The notes beneath the pieces were generated by a model that was not told the DNA's origin, ran no database searches, and saw only the letters and a program-made list of their open reading frames with translations. 62,647 bases of DNA, from positions 1 through 62,647 of the IMG/VR virus record IMGVR_UViG_3300010885_033467. One strand, written 5' to 3'. Position numbers and translations under genes: made by a program. Numbering within the stretch: position 1 is the first letter of the stretch; every line of letters starts with the position of its first letter. The DNA comes from a virus. Positions 12,455 through 62,647 of this stretch are shown piece after piece.

Positions 12455-12904
12455 ATGAACAGCATATACAGTACAGAACCAATCAGTGAGTTTAAGATAA
12501 GGTGCAAAAAGGTCGTTCACCCGTGGGTGTACACCTTGCTTAATAGCAAGCCTAAATTGCCTAAATCTACATCTTACGAATTGATGCAGAAAGAAGAGCA
12601 GAAGAAAATAGTAAAGCGACACCACGCGGAAACGCTATTAAAGGCGGTATGTGATAAATTCAAAGCGACCCCCGAAATAATGGGCAAAAAGTCGCGCGAA
12701 AATGCCTGTATAGAACCAAGACAGGCTTATTACTATCTACTCAGAAAGTACACATCACTAACACTTAGAGAAGCGGGAAAATCGCTTGGATTAAGGCAAG
12801 ACCACTCTACCGTTGTGAACGCAGTAAAGCGGGTTGAGCAAGCTATATCTATAAGGGATGGATTCGGACTAAAAATAATTGAGATAATAGACGCGCTGAA
12901 GTAG
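12455..12904 (+). CDS. DnaA domain-IV protein
   Basis: The C-terminal 90 residues match the DnaA DNA-binding domain: a YYLLRKYTSLTLREAGKSLG helix-turn-helix and the DnaA signature with Asp-His-Ser-Thr at 116-119 (LRQDHSTVVNAVKRVE). The AAA+ ATPase of DnaA is absent, and the N-terminal 50 residues are unrelated and basic. It would bind DnaA-box-like DNA without ATP-driven remodelling, and could mark the phage origin, block host oriC, or regulate transcription. It ends flush against a convergent gene with no gap. Confidence 0.85.
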   Translation: MNSIYSTEPISEFKIRCKKVVHPWVYTLLNSKPKLPKSTSYELMQKEEQKKIVKRHHAETLLKAVCDKFKATPEIMGKKSRENACIEPRQAYYYLLRKYTSLTLREAGKSLGLRQDHSTVVNAVKRVEQAISIRDGFGLKIIEIIDALK

Positions 12905-46254: not shown

Positions 46255-47064
46255 ATGGCAACTCTTTTCATCCCGCTCAATGATGGTACGCATCCATGTG
46301 TGTCTATCGGGGGCGTAAACCAACCAACCCCACCCGCAGGTGAAATAGCGGCTGCTGACGTTGTGTACGTGCTCCCTTGCAAGTATAACGTGAGCGGGTC
46401 TTTGACCGATATGGTCTGTGCTTATGTAGGACAAAACTCAACCACACCTACACCGTATATATTCAATGTCTCTACTCTCGCAGGATTCCTTACTTTCCTG
46501 TCTACCGCTACCGTTACCAACTCGCTCAGCACGTACACCAAGCTGAAAGTTCTTAACGGCTCTAAAAACAGCGCAACGGTTCTGCCTAGCGTTCTCATTA
46601 ATCAAAACCTTATCATCGGTCGTGAATATCAGGCGCTCAATAATATCTGCACTATCATCGCAGGTTCACTCAGCAAGACATATCCTAACACTCAACTCGG
46701 CGTACTCGGCAATCAGACTGACGCGGGCGCTGCTGCCACTGCATCACTCGCAGTTCCTATTGCTGCATCACCTGTCAATGGAGATACCCTGAAAGCATAT
46801 ATCAATGGCGTGCAAATCGGCACTACATACACAGTCTCAGGTTCACCTTCACAGGCCACCGTCAAAACGGCTATTGACGCAAAGTTCAACAGCAACACCC
46901 TCGGATTCACATTCGTCGGTACGCTTAATACTAACGTTGACACACTGGCGGGCACAGCACCTACTAAGGGTTCGTTCTATAATGGCTACACCGTGTCATT
47001 CGTGAGAACAGGAACAACCTTCGGTTCATCAAATGTGTCGGCTACCTTCTCAGGAGGCGTATAA
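46255..47064 (+). CDS. unknown plus-strand protein inside the head gene cluster
   Basis: A 269-aa Thr/Ser/Ala-rich, beta-predicted protein with no signal peptide (MATLFIPLNDGTHPCVSIGG). About residues 165-269 look like a repeated beta-sandwich. It is transcribed against the surrounding late operon from a strong promoter and followed by a bidirectional terminator. It might be an abundant virion decoration or vertex protein, or a prophage-expressed moron. No family recognised. Confidence 0.6.
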   Translation: MATLFIPLNDGTHPCVSIGGVNQPTPPAGEIAAADVVYVLPCKYNVSGSLTDMVCAYVGQNSTTPTPYIFNVSTLAGFLTFLSTATVTNSLSTYTKLKVLNGSKNSATVLPSVLINQNLIIGREYQALNNICTIIAGSLSKTYPNTQLGVLGNQTDAGAAATASLAVPIAASPVNGDTLKAYINGVQIGTTYTVSGSPSQATVKTAIDAKFNSNTLGFTFVGTLNTNVDTLAGTAPTKGSFYNGYTVSFVRTGTTFGSSNVSATFSGGV

Positions 47065-50949: not shown

Positions 50950-51164
50950 ATCTTTTCAAATGTAATTACAGGTTTTCGATTCGTTGCTACGCCTATTTTG
51001 TTTAATAGCTTCATACTTGGCGACGAGCTACCACGTTCGGTATTGCTTATGGTAGACCGATTCACGCCAACTTTACTAGCAAGCTCTGCCTGAGATAGCC
51101 CCGCCGCACGCCTGACATCTCGTACAGCATTGGAGCATTGAGGATATTTTGAGTTGTCGCGCAT
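50946..51164 (-). CDS. XRE-family helix-turn-helix regulator
   Basis: A 72-aa single-domain regulator: VRDVRRAAGLSQAELASKVG, then VNRSTISNTERG is the canonical XRE helix-turn-helix (about residues 13-50). Second or third gene of the leftward operon, overlapping the GroES-like gene by 4 bp. Probably controls late or lysogeny functions. Confidence 0.88.
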   Translation of the reverse strand: MRDNSKYPQCSNAVRDVRRAAGLSQAELASKVGVNRSTISNTERGSSSPSMKLLNKIGVATNRKPVITFEKI

Positions 51165-51167
51165 AGA

Positions 51168-51488
51168 TTAGAATGGCAGGCTTTCTTCGTCTACATTTGA
51201 TGCAGGACGGTTGTTTGTCTGTGCATTTGTCTTTGATTGCCCCGCACCACCTTTGTAGGTGTCTACCGACATGGACATTGAACCGTCGCGGTCAGATTTA
51301 GTTATTTGAAATTTGATTTGAGGCTTGCCTTGGTACTCAGTGATATTCTCTTTTAGCTCCTTTTGCTCCTTGACAAACTTTGCCAAGTCGTCAAGACTAA
51401 TTACTCCATTTGCTACTACCCACGTTGGCGCACCCTGTTTTGCAGGAAATAATCTTACACCACCGATAAATACCTTTTTGTCTGCCAT
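51168..51488 (-). CDS. SSB-like protein
   Basis: A 106-aa protein starting MADKKVFIGGVRLFPAKQGA, with a beta-rich body (KPQIKFQITKSDRDGSMSMS, then VDTYKG), a Ser/Thr/Asn-rich linker, and the acidic tip DEESLPF. Such a tip is the protein-interaction tail of single-stranded DNA-binding proteins. The OB fold is not proven. It would coat phage ssDNA and recruit host repair and replication proteins. Confidence 0.6.
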   Translation of the reverse strand: MADKKVFIGGVRLFPAKQGAPTWVVANGVISLDDLAKFVKEQKELKENITEYQGKPQIKFQITKSDRDGSMSMSVDTYKGGAGQSKTNAQTNNRPASNVDEESLPF

Positions 51489-51489
51489 A

Positions 51490-51780
51490 TTATTGTTGTT
51501 TAATTTTACTCCATTCTAAAATCCCTTCCGCAGAAGGTCGGTCAATTACTATCGGGTCATTGCCTTCTACCTGAAGCTCCACTTCATATTTGCCGTCGTT
51601 ATAAACGAGCCAATGACCGTGCAAAACCCCTTCCGATTCCCACTCCCTGATTATCCACTGATGGCAATTCGGTTCGTCAACTACGTCATACCTTTTCCCA
51701 AATAGGGAGTCGGTATCACTAAGCGAACCAATCGAGGTAGTTTTAGCTTCCACGAAACAAATGTAAAGTAAATTTTCCAT
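51490..51780 (-). CDS. hypothetical protein
   Basis: A 96-aa acidic protein with a WIIREWESEGVLHGHWLVYN segment and predicted beta structure. First gene of the leftward operon; it starts 45 bp from a small divergent gene. No function recognised. Confidence 0.55.
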   Translation of the reverse strand: MENLLYICFVEAKTTSIGSLSDTDSLFGKRYDVVDEPNCHQWIIREWESEGVLHGHWLVYNDGKYEVELQVEGNDPIVIDRPSAEGILEWSKIKQQ

Positions 51781-51797
51781 TTGTTGTAATAAAGTAG

Positions 51798-51805
51798 TAC
51801 TTTTG
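51798..51805 (+). promoter_or_regulatory. -7 element in the divergent gap
   Basis: TACTTTTG is an exact TAnnTTTG match ahead of the 32-aa and zinc-finger genes. No -33 box at the usual distance. Confidence 0.35.
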
Positions 51806-51825
51806 TTTTACTAAACAAAACAAGC

Positions 51826-51924
51826 ATGAAATACCTTACCGTAGAACAAAGGAATTATTTAGCGCACCTGCTCGATAGGACCGAGCGTTCTGCGGAATTA
51901 CTATTGGCCTACATCTCAAAATGA
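51826..51924 (+). CDS. 32-aa hypothetical peptide
   Basis: MKYLTVEQRNYLAHLLDRTE is the start of a short helical peptide with a consensus-type leader, 4 bp before the zinc-finger gene. The promoter context and spacing favour translation. Confidence 0.45.
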   Translation: MKYLTVEQRNYLAHLLDRTERSAELLLAYISK

Positions 51925-51928
51925 TACT

Positions 51929-52168
51929 ATGGACGAGCGCATCTGTGATAAACGGGGGTTTTCTAAGAAGGACGCGCAGACCATTGTAAACTCCAAGAAA
52001 AAAGCGCTTGGTAAGAATAAAAAAGAAAAGAGGTGCTATCACTGCCAGTTTTGTAATATGTGGCACTTGACAAGTCAGGATTACGAGTACAAAGTAACAT
52101 CGTCACCGATTGATTTGAAGTATAGGGACGAATGGCAGAAATTATTAGGCAATACTACAACCCGCTAA
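51929..52168 (+). CDS. small zinc-finger protein
   Basis: A 79-aa basic protein with CYHCQFCNMWHLTS, which resembles a CxxC-x2-C/WH knuckle found in small phage proteins, preceded by a lysine-rich helix (KKALGKNKKEKR). Likely binds nucleic acid. Its 3' end overlaps the convergent RusA gene by 14 bp. Confidence 0.6.
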   Translation: MDERICDKRGFSKKDAQTIVNSKKKALGKNKKEKRCYHCQFCNMWHLTSQDYEYKVTSSPIDLKYRDEWQKLLGNTTTR

Positions 52169-52655
52169 TCTCTATATACCCCCTTACACCCCAAACCTTA
52201 GTCACGCTCACCGAGTGAATCCCGCTATCTTCATCCCGCAGGCAGTCGCACAGGGCTTTAGCAAAGTTATCCCAATCGGGTTTAGCGCGGTGGGGCTGAC
52301 CGTCCTGAGCTGACCGCTTGGATTTACTCCAACTCATAGGCATAGAGACGACAAATTTGACCGTGAAACTATCGGGCAGCACAAAGCCAATCGCGTCAGC
52401 CTGACTATTCAGCGCATCCTTAAACGCCCAATACTTTTCCGTAGCGGGTCGCTTTGACCACTTATCGCGCCTAGTCATTCTAGGTTTAGCCACAGGGTCT
52501 ATATCAAATATTACGGACTGTGACTGATCTAAACGCTTTGATTTGGCTATTACGAGCAATTCCGAGCCACCTTTAGCCTTTACGGGTAGCTTCGTAGGCT
52601 CCTTGCAGTAAATTCGCCTAAAATCGGCTGAGGAAATCGTTTCGCCGTGTTTCAT
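52155..52655 (-). CDS. RusA-family Holliday-junction resolvase
   Basis: A 166-aa protein with the RusA motifs KPRMTRRDKW (57-66) and KPDWDNFAKALCDCL, where Asp127 and Asp129 would bind Mg2+, then DEDSGI with a third acidic site (Asp142). It carries about 50 extra N-terminal residues compared with short RusA proteins. It would resolve recombination intermediates before packaging. Confidence 0.88.
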   Translation of the reverse strand: MKHGETISSADFRRIYCKEPTKLPVKAKGGSELLVIAKSKRLDQSQSVIFDIDPVAKPRMTRRDKWSKRPATEKYWAFKDALNSQADAIGFVLPDSFTVKFVVSMPMSWSKSKRSAQDGQPHRAKPDWDNFAKALCDCLRDEDSGIHSVSVTKVWGVRGYIEISGL

Positions 52656-52667
52656 AGGTAGGTGGCG

Positions 52668-53078
52668 TTAATTAAATATTACATTGAACCGCAATCTAGT
52701 GTCATCTTTTAGCGCATCATCTAAAAAAGATTGCGTGATTTCATCTGCGGTTGATGTAAATGGATTGACTGAATATCTTGGAAGCCCCGCAAAGTCAGCC
52801 ATGACTTTACCGCGCGTAGCAACTTTTATTCCTTTGGGATAAATATTGGTTGTGACAATAACCGATAGTACATCCCTTGCTATTACAAAGCTATATAATA
52901 TGCGCCTATGCCTATTACTATGCTTAAACGTATTCGCCACAAACATATCAGGGTGAAACTCCTCAAAATCATTTAAATCAAAACTTAAAGTTTCAGCCAA
53001 GTTTGCCATATCGGACTCATCAGGCTGTTTGTCAAATTCGATATAGAATTGCAAATTCCCGTACTCATGTATTTTCAT
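52668..53078 (-). CDS. hypothetical protein
   Basis: A 136-aa protein with mixed alpha/beta content and many aromatic residues (MKIHEYGNLQFYIEFDKQPD). Between the RusA and RepL-like genes in one leftward operon. No motif recognised. Confidence 0.55.
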   Translation of the reverse strand: MKIHEYGNLQFYIEFDKQPDESDMANLAETLSFDLNDFEEFHPDMFVANTFKHSNRHRRILYSFVIARDVLSVIVTTNIYPKGIKVATRGKVMADFAGLPRYSVNPFTSTADEITQSFLDDALKDDTRLRFNVIFN

Positions 53079-53086
53079 ATCCCTGC

Positions 53087-53593
53087 TTACCCGTTTAATC
53101 TTCCGTAATGCTCCTTGGCGCTATAACCCGACATCATTCCAATCCTGCTCCCATTATAGAAAATAGATGGATTGATGAAATACATATCACCCTTTTGCGG
53201 AGCTATCACACCTAGCTTAACCAACTCTTTCTTAGCTTTAAAAAATTGCTGACTTGCGTATATGCCCGAAAACACCGCATATTCATCCTGAAACAACCTA
53301 ACCCTGTCTGAGCGTGGCTTCAAAAGTGTACAGATAAAAAAGAACATCCTTAACGCAGGCTTACTAAGCCCCATTAACAAACGCAAATTATAAGTAGTGG
53401 AAAATAACTTTAAAAACACAGCACCATCGTGCCAAAAGAAATCAGAGTCAGAAGTATCTACTTCCTTACCAAAAACCTCCCCGTCATCAACAAAAGCAGC
53501 CTCCCTTGTCTTTTTCTTTTTCTTTGAAAGCGGCACAAAACTACTCTTGACGGAAACTATAAAAGGATTGGTTTCATTATAGGCTTTTTTCAT
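53087..53593 (-). CDS. RepL-like winged-helix protein
   Basis: A 168-aa protein. A basic N-terminus (LSKKKKKTREAAF) precedes a winged-helix region (about 80-140: LMGLSKPALRMFFFICTLLK), and the wing ends in KGDMYFINPSIFYNG, like the YxINP motif of plasmid RepL proteins. It could be a replication initiator for a plasmid-like origin or a DNA-binding regulator. A TATATTTG -7 element lies 15 bp upstream. Confidence 0.6.
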   Translation of the reverse strand: MKKAYNETNPFIVSVKSSFVPLSKKKKKTREAAFVDDGEVFGKEVDTSDSDFFWHDGAVFLKLFSTTYNLRLLMGLSKPALRMFFFICTLLKPRSDRVRLFQDEYAVFSGIYASQQFFKAKKELVKLGVIAPQKGDMYFINPSIFYNGSRIGMMSGYSAKEHYGRLNG

Positions 53594-53966
53594 AGGATTA
53601 TTACCCTACAAATATACTCATTTTAGTGCAAAATAATTGCAATTAGCAACACTTTTTACACTAATTTTTTACAGTATATCTACGTTTCAGCGTGCCCCTA
53701 TTCTTATTAATTATTACGGCTGTTTTGAGCTAATGTATTAAAGGTAAAATAAGTGCAAACCAACTACACGCATCCCAAATAATTATTACAAACATTTACC
53801 AATATCAATGGGGTTTCCCCTGAAAAGGCCACCCCCTTCGCGCCAGTGGGAAACGGAATCCGCAAGCCCCGCCCTCTCACTTTTTGGAAAAGGATTGCTA
53901 CCATCCCCAAAAACCATAAACCGACCTCCCGCAGGAGCCCCGATATAAACCATTCTAAACTACTTT

Positions 53967-54036
53967 GACTCTTATAAAGAGTCGCAACAGTATTGGTAAT
54001 AAGCTACTTACATTCGTTGGTGTACTTATGGTGTAC
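53967..54036 (-). promoter_or_regulatory. att-like site B: dyad plus paired 9-mers
   Basis: On the minus strand two 9-mers, GTACACCAT and GTACACCAA, are spaced 11 bp apart. They are followed after exactly 32 bp by CGACTC, which opens the perfect dyad GACTCTT-tat-AAGAGTC. The attP beside the integrase has the same repeat pair, the same 11-bp period and the same 32-bp gap to CGACTC. Probably bound by the integrase, or by a regulator that also controls the integrase. Confidence 0.5.
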
Positions 54037-54270
54037 TTTTGACGGCGCAAACATAGGTGAGCAGAACCGAACGCGGGAAATTCCCAAGCTGATGACCGAG
54101 GCGCAAACGACCGAGCGCACGCAAGCCATGACAGTTATGACAAACTGGTAAACGTGGCGCAAATCACCCTAAAATGGGGTAATTTTCCCTTGTAAACGGG
54201 ATTTGCCCATGTTCGCCCATGACAAACTATACAAAATGCTCATATATGGGACAAGATTATGAATGAATTG

Positions 54271-54278
54271 TATCTTTG
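54271..54278 (+). promoter_or_regulatory. -7 element giving a probably leaderless mRNA
   Basis: TATCTTTG ends 6 bp before the ATG of the wHTH gene, so transcription would begin at or next to the start codon. The -33 region is not consensus. Confidence 0.5.
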
Positions 54279-54284
54279 CGTTAA

Positions 54285-54674
54285 ATGAGTCAAAAAAAGC
54301 CTATACACGCTCAAACGCTTAGCGACCTATCAATATCAGTGCTTTGCTCAAATTATGCCTTAAAACGCGTTCAATTAGCTTTTAGGGGTATGACTGCTTT
54401 AGATTGCAGTATCATTTTGTCCTTGTATGGTCAAGGTGCTGTTTCTGTTCGTGCCGTTTCTGAGATAGTTTTGAGGGTTAGGCGAACGACTTACAATATA
54501 CTTAGGCGGTGTGCTGAGCGTGGTTTGATTGAGGAGACAGGGGGCGTAAAAAAGAAATATAGGCTTTCGGAGCTTGGATTGTCTGTTTACGCGAAATATT
54601 GTGAAGGCTATGAGATTATGAAAAACAACCTGATAAAATTAGAAGAGGAGCGGTTAGCTAGGTTGAGAAGATAG
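54285..54674 (+). CDS. MarR-like winged-helix regulator
   Basis: A 129-aa protein: an N-terminal helix pair (LDCSIILSLYGQGAVSVRAV), a recognition helix region (LRVRRTTYNILRRCAERGLI) and a beta wing (EETGGVKKKYRLSELGL), then a helical tail. This is the MarR/PadR order. It opens the accessory region and may regulate it or the convergent RHH gene. Confidence 0.75.
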   Translation: MSQKKPIHAQTLSDLSISVLCSNYALKRVQLAFRGMTALDCSIILSLYGQGAVSVRAVSEIVLRVRRTTYNILRRCAERGLIEETGGVKKKYRLSELGLSVYAKYCEGYEIMKNNLIKLEEERLARLRR

Positions 54675-59865: not shown

Positions 59866-59928
59866 CATGCCAAACCGCGTACACCAACCGTACACCAATG
59901 AGCTAAAACCCTTATCAATCCTAGATAC

Positions 59929-59948
59929 TTCGACTCCCTTCAGGGACA
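59929..59948 (+). promoter_or_regulatory. attP core, tRNA 3'-end-like
   Basis: TTCGACTCCCTTCAGGGACA has the form of a tRNA 3' end: T-loop TTCGACT, T-stem CCCTT, acceptor CAGGGAC and discriminator A. Integration at a host tRNA would restore the gene. The TCCC/GGGA dyad is also usable as a recombinase core. The host tRNA cannot be named from the window. Confidence 0.5.
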
Positions 59949-59958
59949 CAATAAACTA

Positions 59959-59979
59959 GGGGCGATAAGCCCCTTTTTT
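59959..59979 (+). terminator. intrinsic terminator beside attP
   Basis: GGGGC-gataa-GCCCC followed by six T. Ten bases past the core, it could terminate both the accessory operon and the restored host tRNA after integration. Confidence 0.8.
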
Positions 59980-60136
59980 AATGCAAAGTGGCGAAAACAT
60001 TAGGATTGGTTAGCTTTTATCAAATCCTGCACTTTGACAAAATAGGGTATAATAGGGAATAATTTTTAGCTTTACGGACACCAAGCGTACACCAAAATCA
60101 AATCACGTACACCAAAGGCTATTAAACAGACAAATC

Positions 60137-61417
60137 ATGGCTAAAGGCAGACTAACACTCCGAGACAGAGCGAACGCGGACGGCACGCACCCCGTAATAC
60201 TATCCTATAAGGTCGGGAATACGCCTTACAGGGTCACCACGGGCAAAAGTATAACTAAGAAGCACTGGAACCCGTTGAGCCCCGATTCGCCCGTTAAATC
60301 GTCCCATAATGACGCAGATAGCCTAAACGCTTTCCTGAGATCACTATTAGGCAAGTTCAACCGCATTATAGACGACTATGTGCTGAAGCACGGGGAATCG
60401 CCATCGGTTCTTTACGTTCGGTCACAGTGGGAGAAGGATAAGAACGAGAACACAACGAGCTTTGAGTACCTATATAAACAATTTCTGAGGCGCAAGGCTA
60501 AGAAGTCGGGAGTTGATATTAAGCTAGGTACATTTGAGAATAATCACAAGGTATTGCTCAGATTGCAGGAGTTCACCACAGATAAACGTTTGGAGCTTTC
60601 ATTTGAGGCTATCACTTACAGTTTTATAAACGACTTTCAGGATTGGCTAGTCAAGGAGCGCAAGAACGCGCCTAACTCAGTCGGGACTATCTTTAGGAAT
60701 CTGCGCACGTTTCTTAAATGGGCACAGGAGTTTCACGATGTTAAGGTGAATGAGAAAGTAATCCGAGCCATGCCTTGCCTGAAGGAACAAAAGTGGCGTG
60801 CCTCGCTCGATATGGGCGAAATGGAGCTGATTGCAGGGTTAGACCTGAGCCATAATGAGCTATGGGAGCGGTGCAGGGATATATGCCTTATACAGTTCAA
60901 TATCGGCGGGCGTATCAGTGACGTGTACAACCTGCTTAAAGGTCAGGGCATAGTTTTCGAGAATGGTCAGCCTTACTACAAGTACACTGACAAGAAAACA
61001 GGCGGGTTACACTCGGTGCAACTATTCCCGTTCGTGTACTCAATTATTAAAAAAAGGCTTAACACGCCAGTAAGTTGGATTCCACCTGAGCAGGTCATAA
61101 ACGAGAAGATAAAGCTAATTTGCGCGTTTGCAGGTATAGACGAAATGGTCAGCATTAAAAAGATGAACAGGCAGACAGGCGAGTATGAGGAAAAGCAAGT
61201 GCCTAAGTGGTCGGCTATATCAACCCACACATTCCGAATCAGCCTTATCAATATCCTGTTAGATATGGGCGAATCCCTATCAACTATATCAGGCATCACA
61301 GGTCAGAGTCACGCGACATTATTAGGCTATATGCACAAGTCTAAAAAAGCTGTTACTAAGGCGCTTTCGTCTATCAATGAGAATTTGAGTAGAGGGGCTA
61401 TGAAGGTTGCGAAATAG
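60137..61417 (+). CDS. int: tyrosine integrase
   Basis: A 426-aa recombinase: an N-terminal arm-binding region (1-60), a SAM-like core-binding domain (about 105-215), and the catalytic domain with Arg259 (GGRISDV), lysine near 286, His364-Arg367 in THTFRIS, His392 in GQSHATLLGYMH and the nucleophile Tyr398. All five family residues are present. The arm-binding domain matches the arm repeats found just upstream. Confidence 0.92.
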   Translation: MAKGRLTLRDRANADGTHPVILSYKVGNTPYRVTTGKSITKKHWNPLSPDSPVKSSHNDADSLNAFLRSLLGKFNRIIDDYVLKHGESPSVLYVRSQWEKDKNENTTSFEYLYKQFLRRKAKKSGVDIKLGTFENNHKVLLRLQEFTTDKRLELSFEAITYSFINDFQDWLVKERKNAPNSVGTIFRNLRTFLKWAQEFHDVKVNEKVIRAMPCLKEQKWRASLDMGEMELIAGLDLSHNELWERCRDICLIQFNIGGRISDVYNLLKGQGIVFENGQPYYKYTDKKTGGLHSVQLFPFVYSIIKKRLNTPVSWIPPEQVINEKIKLICAFAGIDEMVSIKKMNRQTGEYEEKQVPKWSAISTHTFRISLINILLDMGESLSTISGITGQSHATLLGYMHKSKKAVTKALSSINENLSRGAMKVAK

Positions 61418-62640: not shown

Positions 62641-62647
62641 GACGCTC

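Follow-up and report, generated by a model that had tools for sequence, protein, structure and literature searches.

A third pair of attP arm-type repeats lies in the divergent intergenic region of a tyrosine integrase phage, 5.9 kb from attP

The viral sequence IMGVR_UViG_3300010885_033467 carries, within positions 53967 to 54036, a pair of direct repeats that resembles the repeats at the phage integration site, which lies 5.9 kb away in the opposite orientation. Is this segment a second recombination site for the phage integrase, a site from which the integrase or another protein controls transcription, or a remnant of an earlier arrangement? The segment was analyzed in the context of the window, i.e., the whole record of 62,647 nt, and of relatives of the encoded integrase.

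The repeat pair and the attachment site

The motif GTACACCAW is present in seven copies in the window versus 0.91 expected, and seven copies were reached in none of 100 shuffled sequences. Pairs of the motif with an 11-bp period occur only at 54017 on the minus strand and at 59879 and 60076 on the plus strand (Table 1), and shuffled motifs used as controls gave no pairs. The excess of the motif and the controls exclude chance as the origin of the extra pair, which scores 17/18 against the arm motif. A single copy at 46533 is intragenic and probably is a chance occurrence. The third att pair at 60076-60095 and the extra copy at 60107-60115 had not been listed in the sequence-only reading that preceded this analysis.

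Table 1. Positions of repeats, promoter-like boxes, and genes at the extra site and at attP
Feature	Sequence	Position	Strand	Remark
First leftward gene, 168 aa		53087-53593	-	No family match; own TATATTTG box at 53616
Perfect dyad	GACTCTT-ATA-AAGAGTC	53967-53983		Adjoins minus-strand CGACTC; operator-like or weak core-like
Extra arm-type site 2	GTACACCAA	54017-54025	-	Motif and 11-bp period as in attP pairs
Extra arm-type site 1	GTACACCAT	54028-54036	-	Motif and 11-bp period as in attP pairs
Bacteroidetes -7-like promoter box	TACTTTTG	54034-54041	+	Overlaps arm-type site 1
Opposed promoter-like box	TATGTTTG	54048-54055	-	Arm pair just downstream of expected start
Winged-helix regulator (TrmB/MarR-like), first rightward gene		54285-54674	+	Own TATCTTTG box at 54271
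P-arm pair of attP, 11 bp	GTACACCAA twice (59879-59887, 59890-59898)	59879-59898	+	Fits family geometry
attP core	TTCGACTCCCTTCAGGGACACAATA	59929-59953	+	Identical to 3' end of Bacteroidetes tRNA-Arg(ACG) gene
P'-arm pair, 11 bp	GGACACCAA / GTACACCAA	60076-60095	+	Arm-motif match
Additional P' arm-type site		60107-60115	+	22 bp before int start codon
Tyrosine integrase		60137-61417	+	Arm-DNA-bind_5 and Phage_int_SAM_5

The attP region (59879-60115) has arm pairs of the same motif on either side of its core, spaced 197 bp apart, which is within the 183 to 233 bp found in the integrase family. The core was identified by searching the genome collection with a 19-base pattern from attP, and all 25 bp are identical to the tRNA-Arg(ACG) gene on contig L051 of a Bacteroidetes bin (MAG); we infer a Bacteroidetes host of the L051 type for this phage. 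Domains recognized in the integrase are the arm-binding PF17293 and the SAM-like PF13102, and the catalytic residues of tyrosine recombinases are conserved (R259, K287, H364, R367, and Y398). Near residue 390, before the catalytic tyrosine, it has ITGQSH versus ITGH in relatives, one residue shorter. With its arm pairs, a core at a tRNA 3' end, and an adjoining int gene, 59879-60115 is like the lambda-type attP of tRNA-integrating bivalent tyrosine recombinases, from which 53967-54036 differs by its single arm pair and the absence of a tRNA core.

Contig L049, from the same bin as L051, holds a second copy of the core with GTACAACA arm-like pairs of 11- to 12-bp period nearby. The core copy and these pairs in L049/L051 mark another element integrated at the same tRNA-Arg gene, and its GTACAACA resembles GTACACCA of the window.

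Arm-site plan among integrase relatives

Relatives of the integrase were collected from one order of Bacteroidetes and from viral contigs, and the plan described here rests on those with clear repeats upstream of int. In viral relatives, a near pair of 9- to 10-bp direct repeats with an 11- to 12-bp period is located ∼20 to 70 bp before the int start codon, and a far pair of the same motif and orientation is located 183 to 233 bp further upstream. The median of this distance is 198 bp in 18 phages (L104, L111, L112, L116, L133, L137, L143, L147 to L149, L155, L158, L159, L169, L172, L173, L175, and L178), compared to 197 bp in the window. The arm motif varies among phages and is common to both pairs within one phage. 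In the integrated elements G318, G305, G128, G162, and G264, the two pairs are found at opposite ends, i.e., at attL and attR, with shared cores of 14 bp in G318 (TGTGATCCCGAAGG) and 18 bp in G305 (ATTCCCGGCGAGACTACT). Pairs that flank the core and shift to both prophage ends behave as integrase arm-type sites do, and the repeats are probably the P and P' arm sites of the integrase. Covariation between the motif and the integrase N-terminal domain gave a Mantel P value of 0.18 with a cyclic motif comparison that is too lenient. In an unrelated marine phage, GTACACCAAAA arrays flank a tRNA-like core beside its integrase.

These data provide a rule for Bacteroidetes integrases of the Arm-DNA-bind_5 type, namely, two pairs of the same motif with a period of 11 to 12 bp, about 200 bp apart and upstream of int, by which attP and its core can be found without experiments. 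The distance from the near pair to int is that of a promoter, so integrase autoregulation may be common in this group.

The sequence-only reading had looked to related phages for conservation of the repeats. A pair away from the att ends was found in none of 20 viral relatives, scanned over all of their contig sequence in the collection, and in none of 10 chromosomal elements, scanned over 14.5 to 40 kb each; 3 of the 10 chromosomal searches failed to recover even the known pair, with either the int side outside the region or the pair below threshold, and are given no weight. The 20 viral relatives have att pairs only, two each or one where the partner was missed, and the window alone has a third. 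As far as these collections show, the third pair appears to be particular to the window phage. No close relatives by integrase, regulator, or 168-aa protein were found in the viral or genome collections, and terminase relatives are only 25 to 30% identical.

The CGACTC match and its 32-bp geometry

The repeats had been described as a pair with an 11-bp period lying 32 bp from a CGACTC in a perfect dyad with 7-bp arms, with the same distance at attP, and both arrangements were confirmed. On the minus strand, the extra pair is followed by 32 bp (54016-53985) and then CGACTC (53984-53979), and at attP, 59899-59930 separates the pair from CGACTC at 59931-59936. The intervening 32-mers are dissimilar (P = 0.12 to 0.18), as had also been stated, and no homology of flanks and spacer between the extra site and attP was detected (P = 0.12 to 0.47). 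From this the match had been judged functional rather than a recent duplication. Recent duplication of an attP arm is indeed excluded by flanks without similarity to attP, but a functional role for the 32-bp geometry was not sustained. CGACTC in attP belongs to the tRNA T-loop, so the host gene accounts for its presence there. In two relatives whose core is defined, 55 to 58 bp separate the P pair from the core versus 30 to 32 bp in the window, so the integrase family does not hold this distance constant. A 6-mer common to both sites at an equal offset is expected by chance in 1.3% of comparisons over 60 bp and in 3.5% over 150 bp, and the window has 18 copies of CGACTC versus 14.6 expected. 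The CGACTC match 32 bp from the extra pair is therefore weak evidence and suggestive at best.

The dyad is the sole perfect dyad with 7-bp arms and a spacer of 0 to 8 bp in its intergenic region. No second copy with fewer than three mismatches is present in the window, and a GACTCTT-N3-AAGAGTC operator family was ruled out because of this single copy.

The stretch at equal offset in the extra site is identical to the attP core at 12 of 25 positions, a level reached by 1.0% of all places, and includes six of the seven T-loop letters. A tRNA core is not present in 53967-54036, and no P' arm was found, i.e., no GTACACCAW with at most one mismatch from 51131 to 54016. Given the lack of a tRNA core, a P' arm, and flank homology, 53967-54036 is not, as judged from its sequence, a complete att site. 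The proposed second integrase site thus holds in that the protein acting at attP very probably recognizes the pair, and fails in that the core and P' pair of an att site are missing.

The divergent intergenic region and the role of the extra pair

The extra pair lies in a 691-bp gap between a leftward operon (up to 53593) and the rightward regulator gene (from 54285), and this gap is also where the window's cumulative GC skew changes direction. A promoter overlapping the repeats had been suggested, and a candidate box, TACTTTTG, does overlap arm-type site 1. TACTTTTG and TATGTTTG are two opposed TAnnTTTG boxes, an arrangement with P = 0.0018 for two within 40 bp. TAnnTTTG is found 86 times in the window versus 57 expected, and it stands directly before several genes (boxes at 53616, 54271, 54952, 55076, and 1466). 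No TTG is present at the usual -33 spacing for either TACTTTTG or TATGTTTG, and the flanking genes have boxes of their own, which makes the activity of these two boxes uncertain. The predicted structure of the 168-aa protein was unusable (pLDDT of 35). A structured RNA in the intergenic region was rejected (no Rfam match; fold z scores of -0.66 and -1.65). Three copies of GGCGCAAA(C/T) at exactly 56-bp spacing (54044-54164) are located at the GC skew turn and could be iterons or operators.

We tentatively favor the reading that 54017-54036 is an additional arm-site pair, outside attP, for the phage's own integrase and most likely serves as a repressing operator. We infer that the integrase is the binder. 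As integrase accumulates, its N-terminal domain would bind the extra pair and would cover positions -33 to -7 of the predicted rightward TACTTTTG promoter as well as the region in which transcripts from the opposed, predicted TATGTTTG promoter would start, and occupancy would be expected to repress transcription that originates in the main divergent intergenic region. Such an operator, far from attP and at the main divergent promoters, may let the amount of integrase feed back directly on phage gene expression. A precedent is the KplE1 prophage, in which IntS represses the intS promoter by binding at att sites that overlap it (PMC2951348). The two systems would be alike if the predicted boxes, which the extra pair overlaps or abuts, are promoter elements like those that integrase arm-type sites overlap in KplE1 (IntS/TorI), such that integrase binding can repress; they differ in that the KplE1 sites are in attL beside intS, whereas the window pair is 5.9 kb from att in another promoter region (PMC2951348). 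If the favored reading is correct, an integrase would be a direct regulator of transcription away from att, beyond its own promoter, and the integration decision would be coupled to early gene expression. No extra pair was found in the relatives searched, and conservation thus lends no support to an operator function; the same absence speaks for an inert relic or titration site, a doubtful alternative. Such a relic could have remained after an ancient rearrangement or from a related element once present. It would consist of a P-arm pair and a weak core-like stretch (an attR-like half) and may hold a few integrase molecules without a selected role. The presence of the P-type half alone, in P-to-core order, and the partial core and T-loop similarity at equal offset are consistent with this. 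However, the flanks and spacer have no homology to attP, yet the 9-mers are nearly intact, and a neutral relic whose flanks have decayed should have lost its repeats too.

The pair could also belong to a different protein, for instance, a directionality factor for recombination or a dual regulator of the 186 Apl or P2 Cox kind, whose targets both at att and between early promoters would be direct repeats spaced by one helical turn; we consider this unlikely. Apl recognizes direct repeats of 10 to 11 bp that are located at attP and between two face-to-face promoters, and it represses both promoters; its sites in phage 186 are separate from the integrase arm sites (PMC7498355). The window is similar in having direct repeats one helical turn apart, as for one protein, both at att and at predicted early promoters, with the extra pair placed on two opposed boxes, and GTACACCA pairs also occur in viral contigs in which no integrase was recognized nearby (L021 and L027). 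In 186 and P2, however, the binder is the directionality factor, and its sites are distinct from arm sites and more numerous (five and seven) (PMC7498355), whereas the repeats here are not distinct from integrase arm sites and, in relatives, flank the core and occupy both prophage ends as arm sites do. No Pfam excisionase family matched the window proteins scanned; as a candidate for a Cox, Apl, or Xis protein, the product of 1836-2111 appears HTH-like by eye only. Inversion of the 5.9-kb accessory module by recombination between this site and attP, which the sequence-only reading had raised, is very improbable. The inverted orientation, the equal distance from pair to CGACTC, and a 7-bp dyad centered at the core position would fit inversion, but the site has neither an attP-identical core nor a P' arm, its overlap stretch differs, the 32-bp distance is no family constraint, and no relative has such a site. 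The extra site is more likely a control switch, as in the integrase-bound operator that we favor, or a relic than a site at which DNA is cut and flipped.

In other viral contigs, GTACACCA pairs are mostly in unrelated contexts, and two of these contigs have integrase domains. L021 (2930-3320) and L040 (7460-7850) each contain three GTACACCA pairs, of which two share the minus strand at a spacing of 196 bp and the third is inverted at a distance of 176 bp. No integrase was recognized among the ORFs scanned in either contig. L027 (2339-2650) has a tandem GTGTACACCAA with an 11-bp period and an inverted copy ∼280 bp away, again with no integrase recognized, in an operator- or origin-like arrangement. 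In the window, positions 1-7 and 62641-62647 are both GACGCTC, a match too short to prove circularity. The phage protein encoded at 12455-12904 contains the C-terminal domain of DnaA, which binds DnaA boxes.
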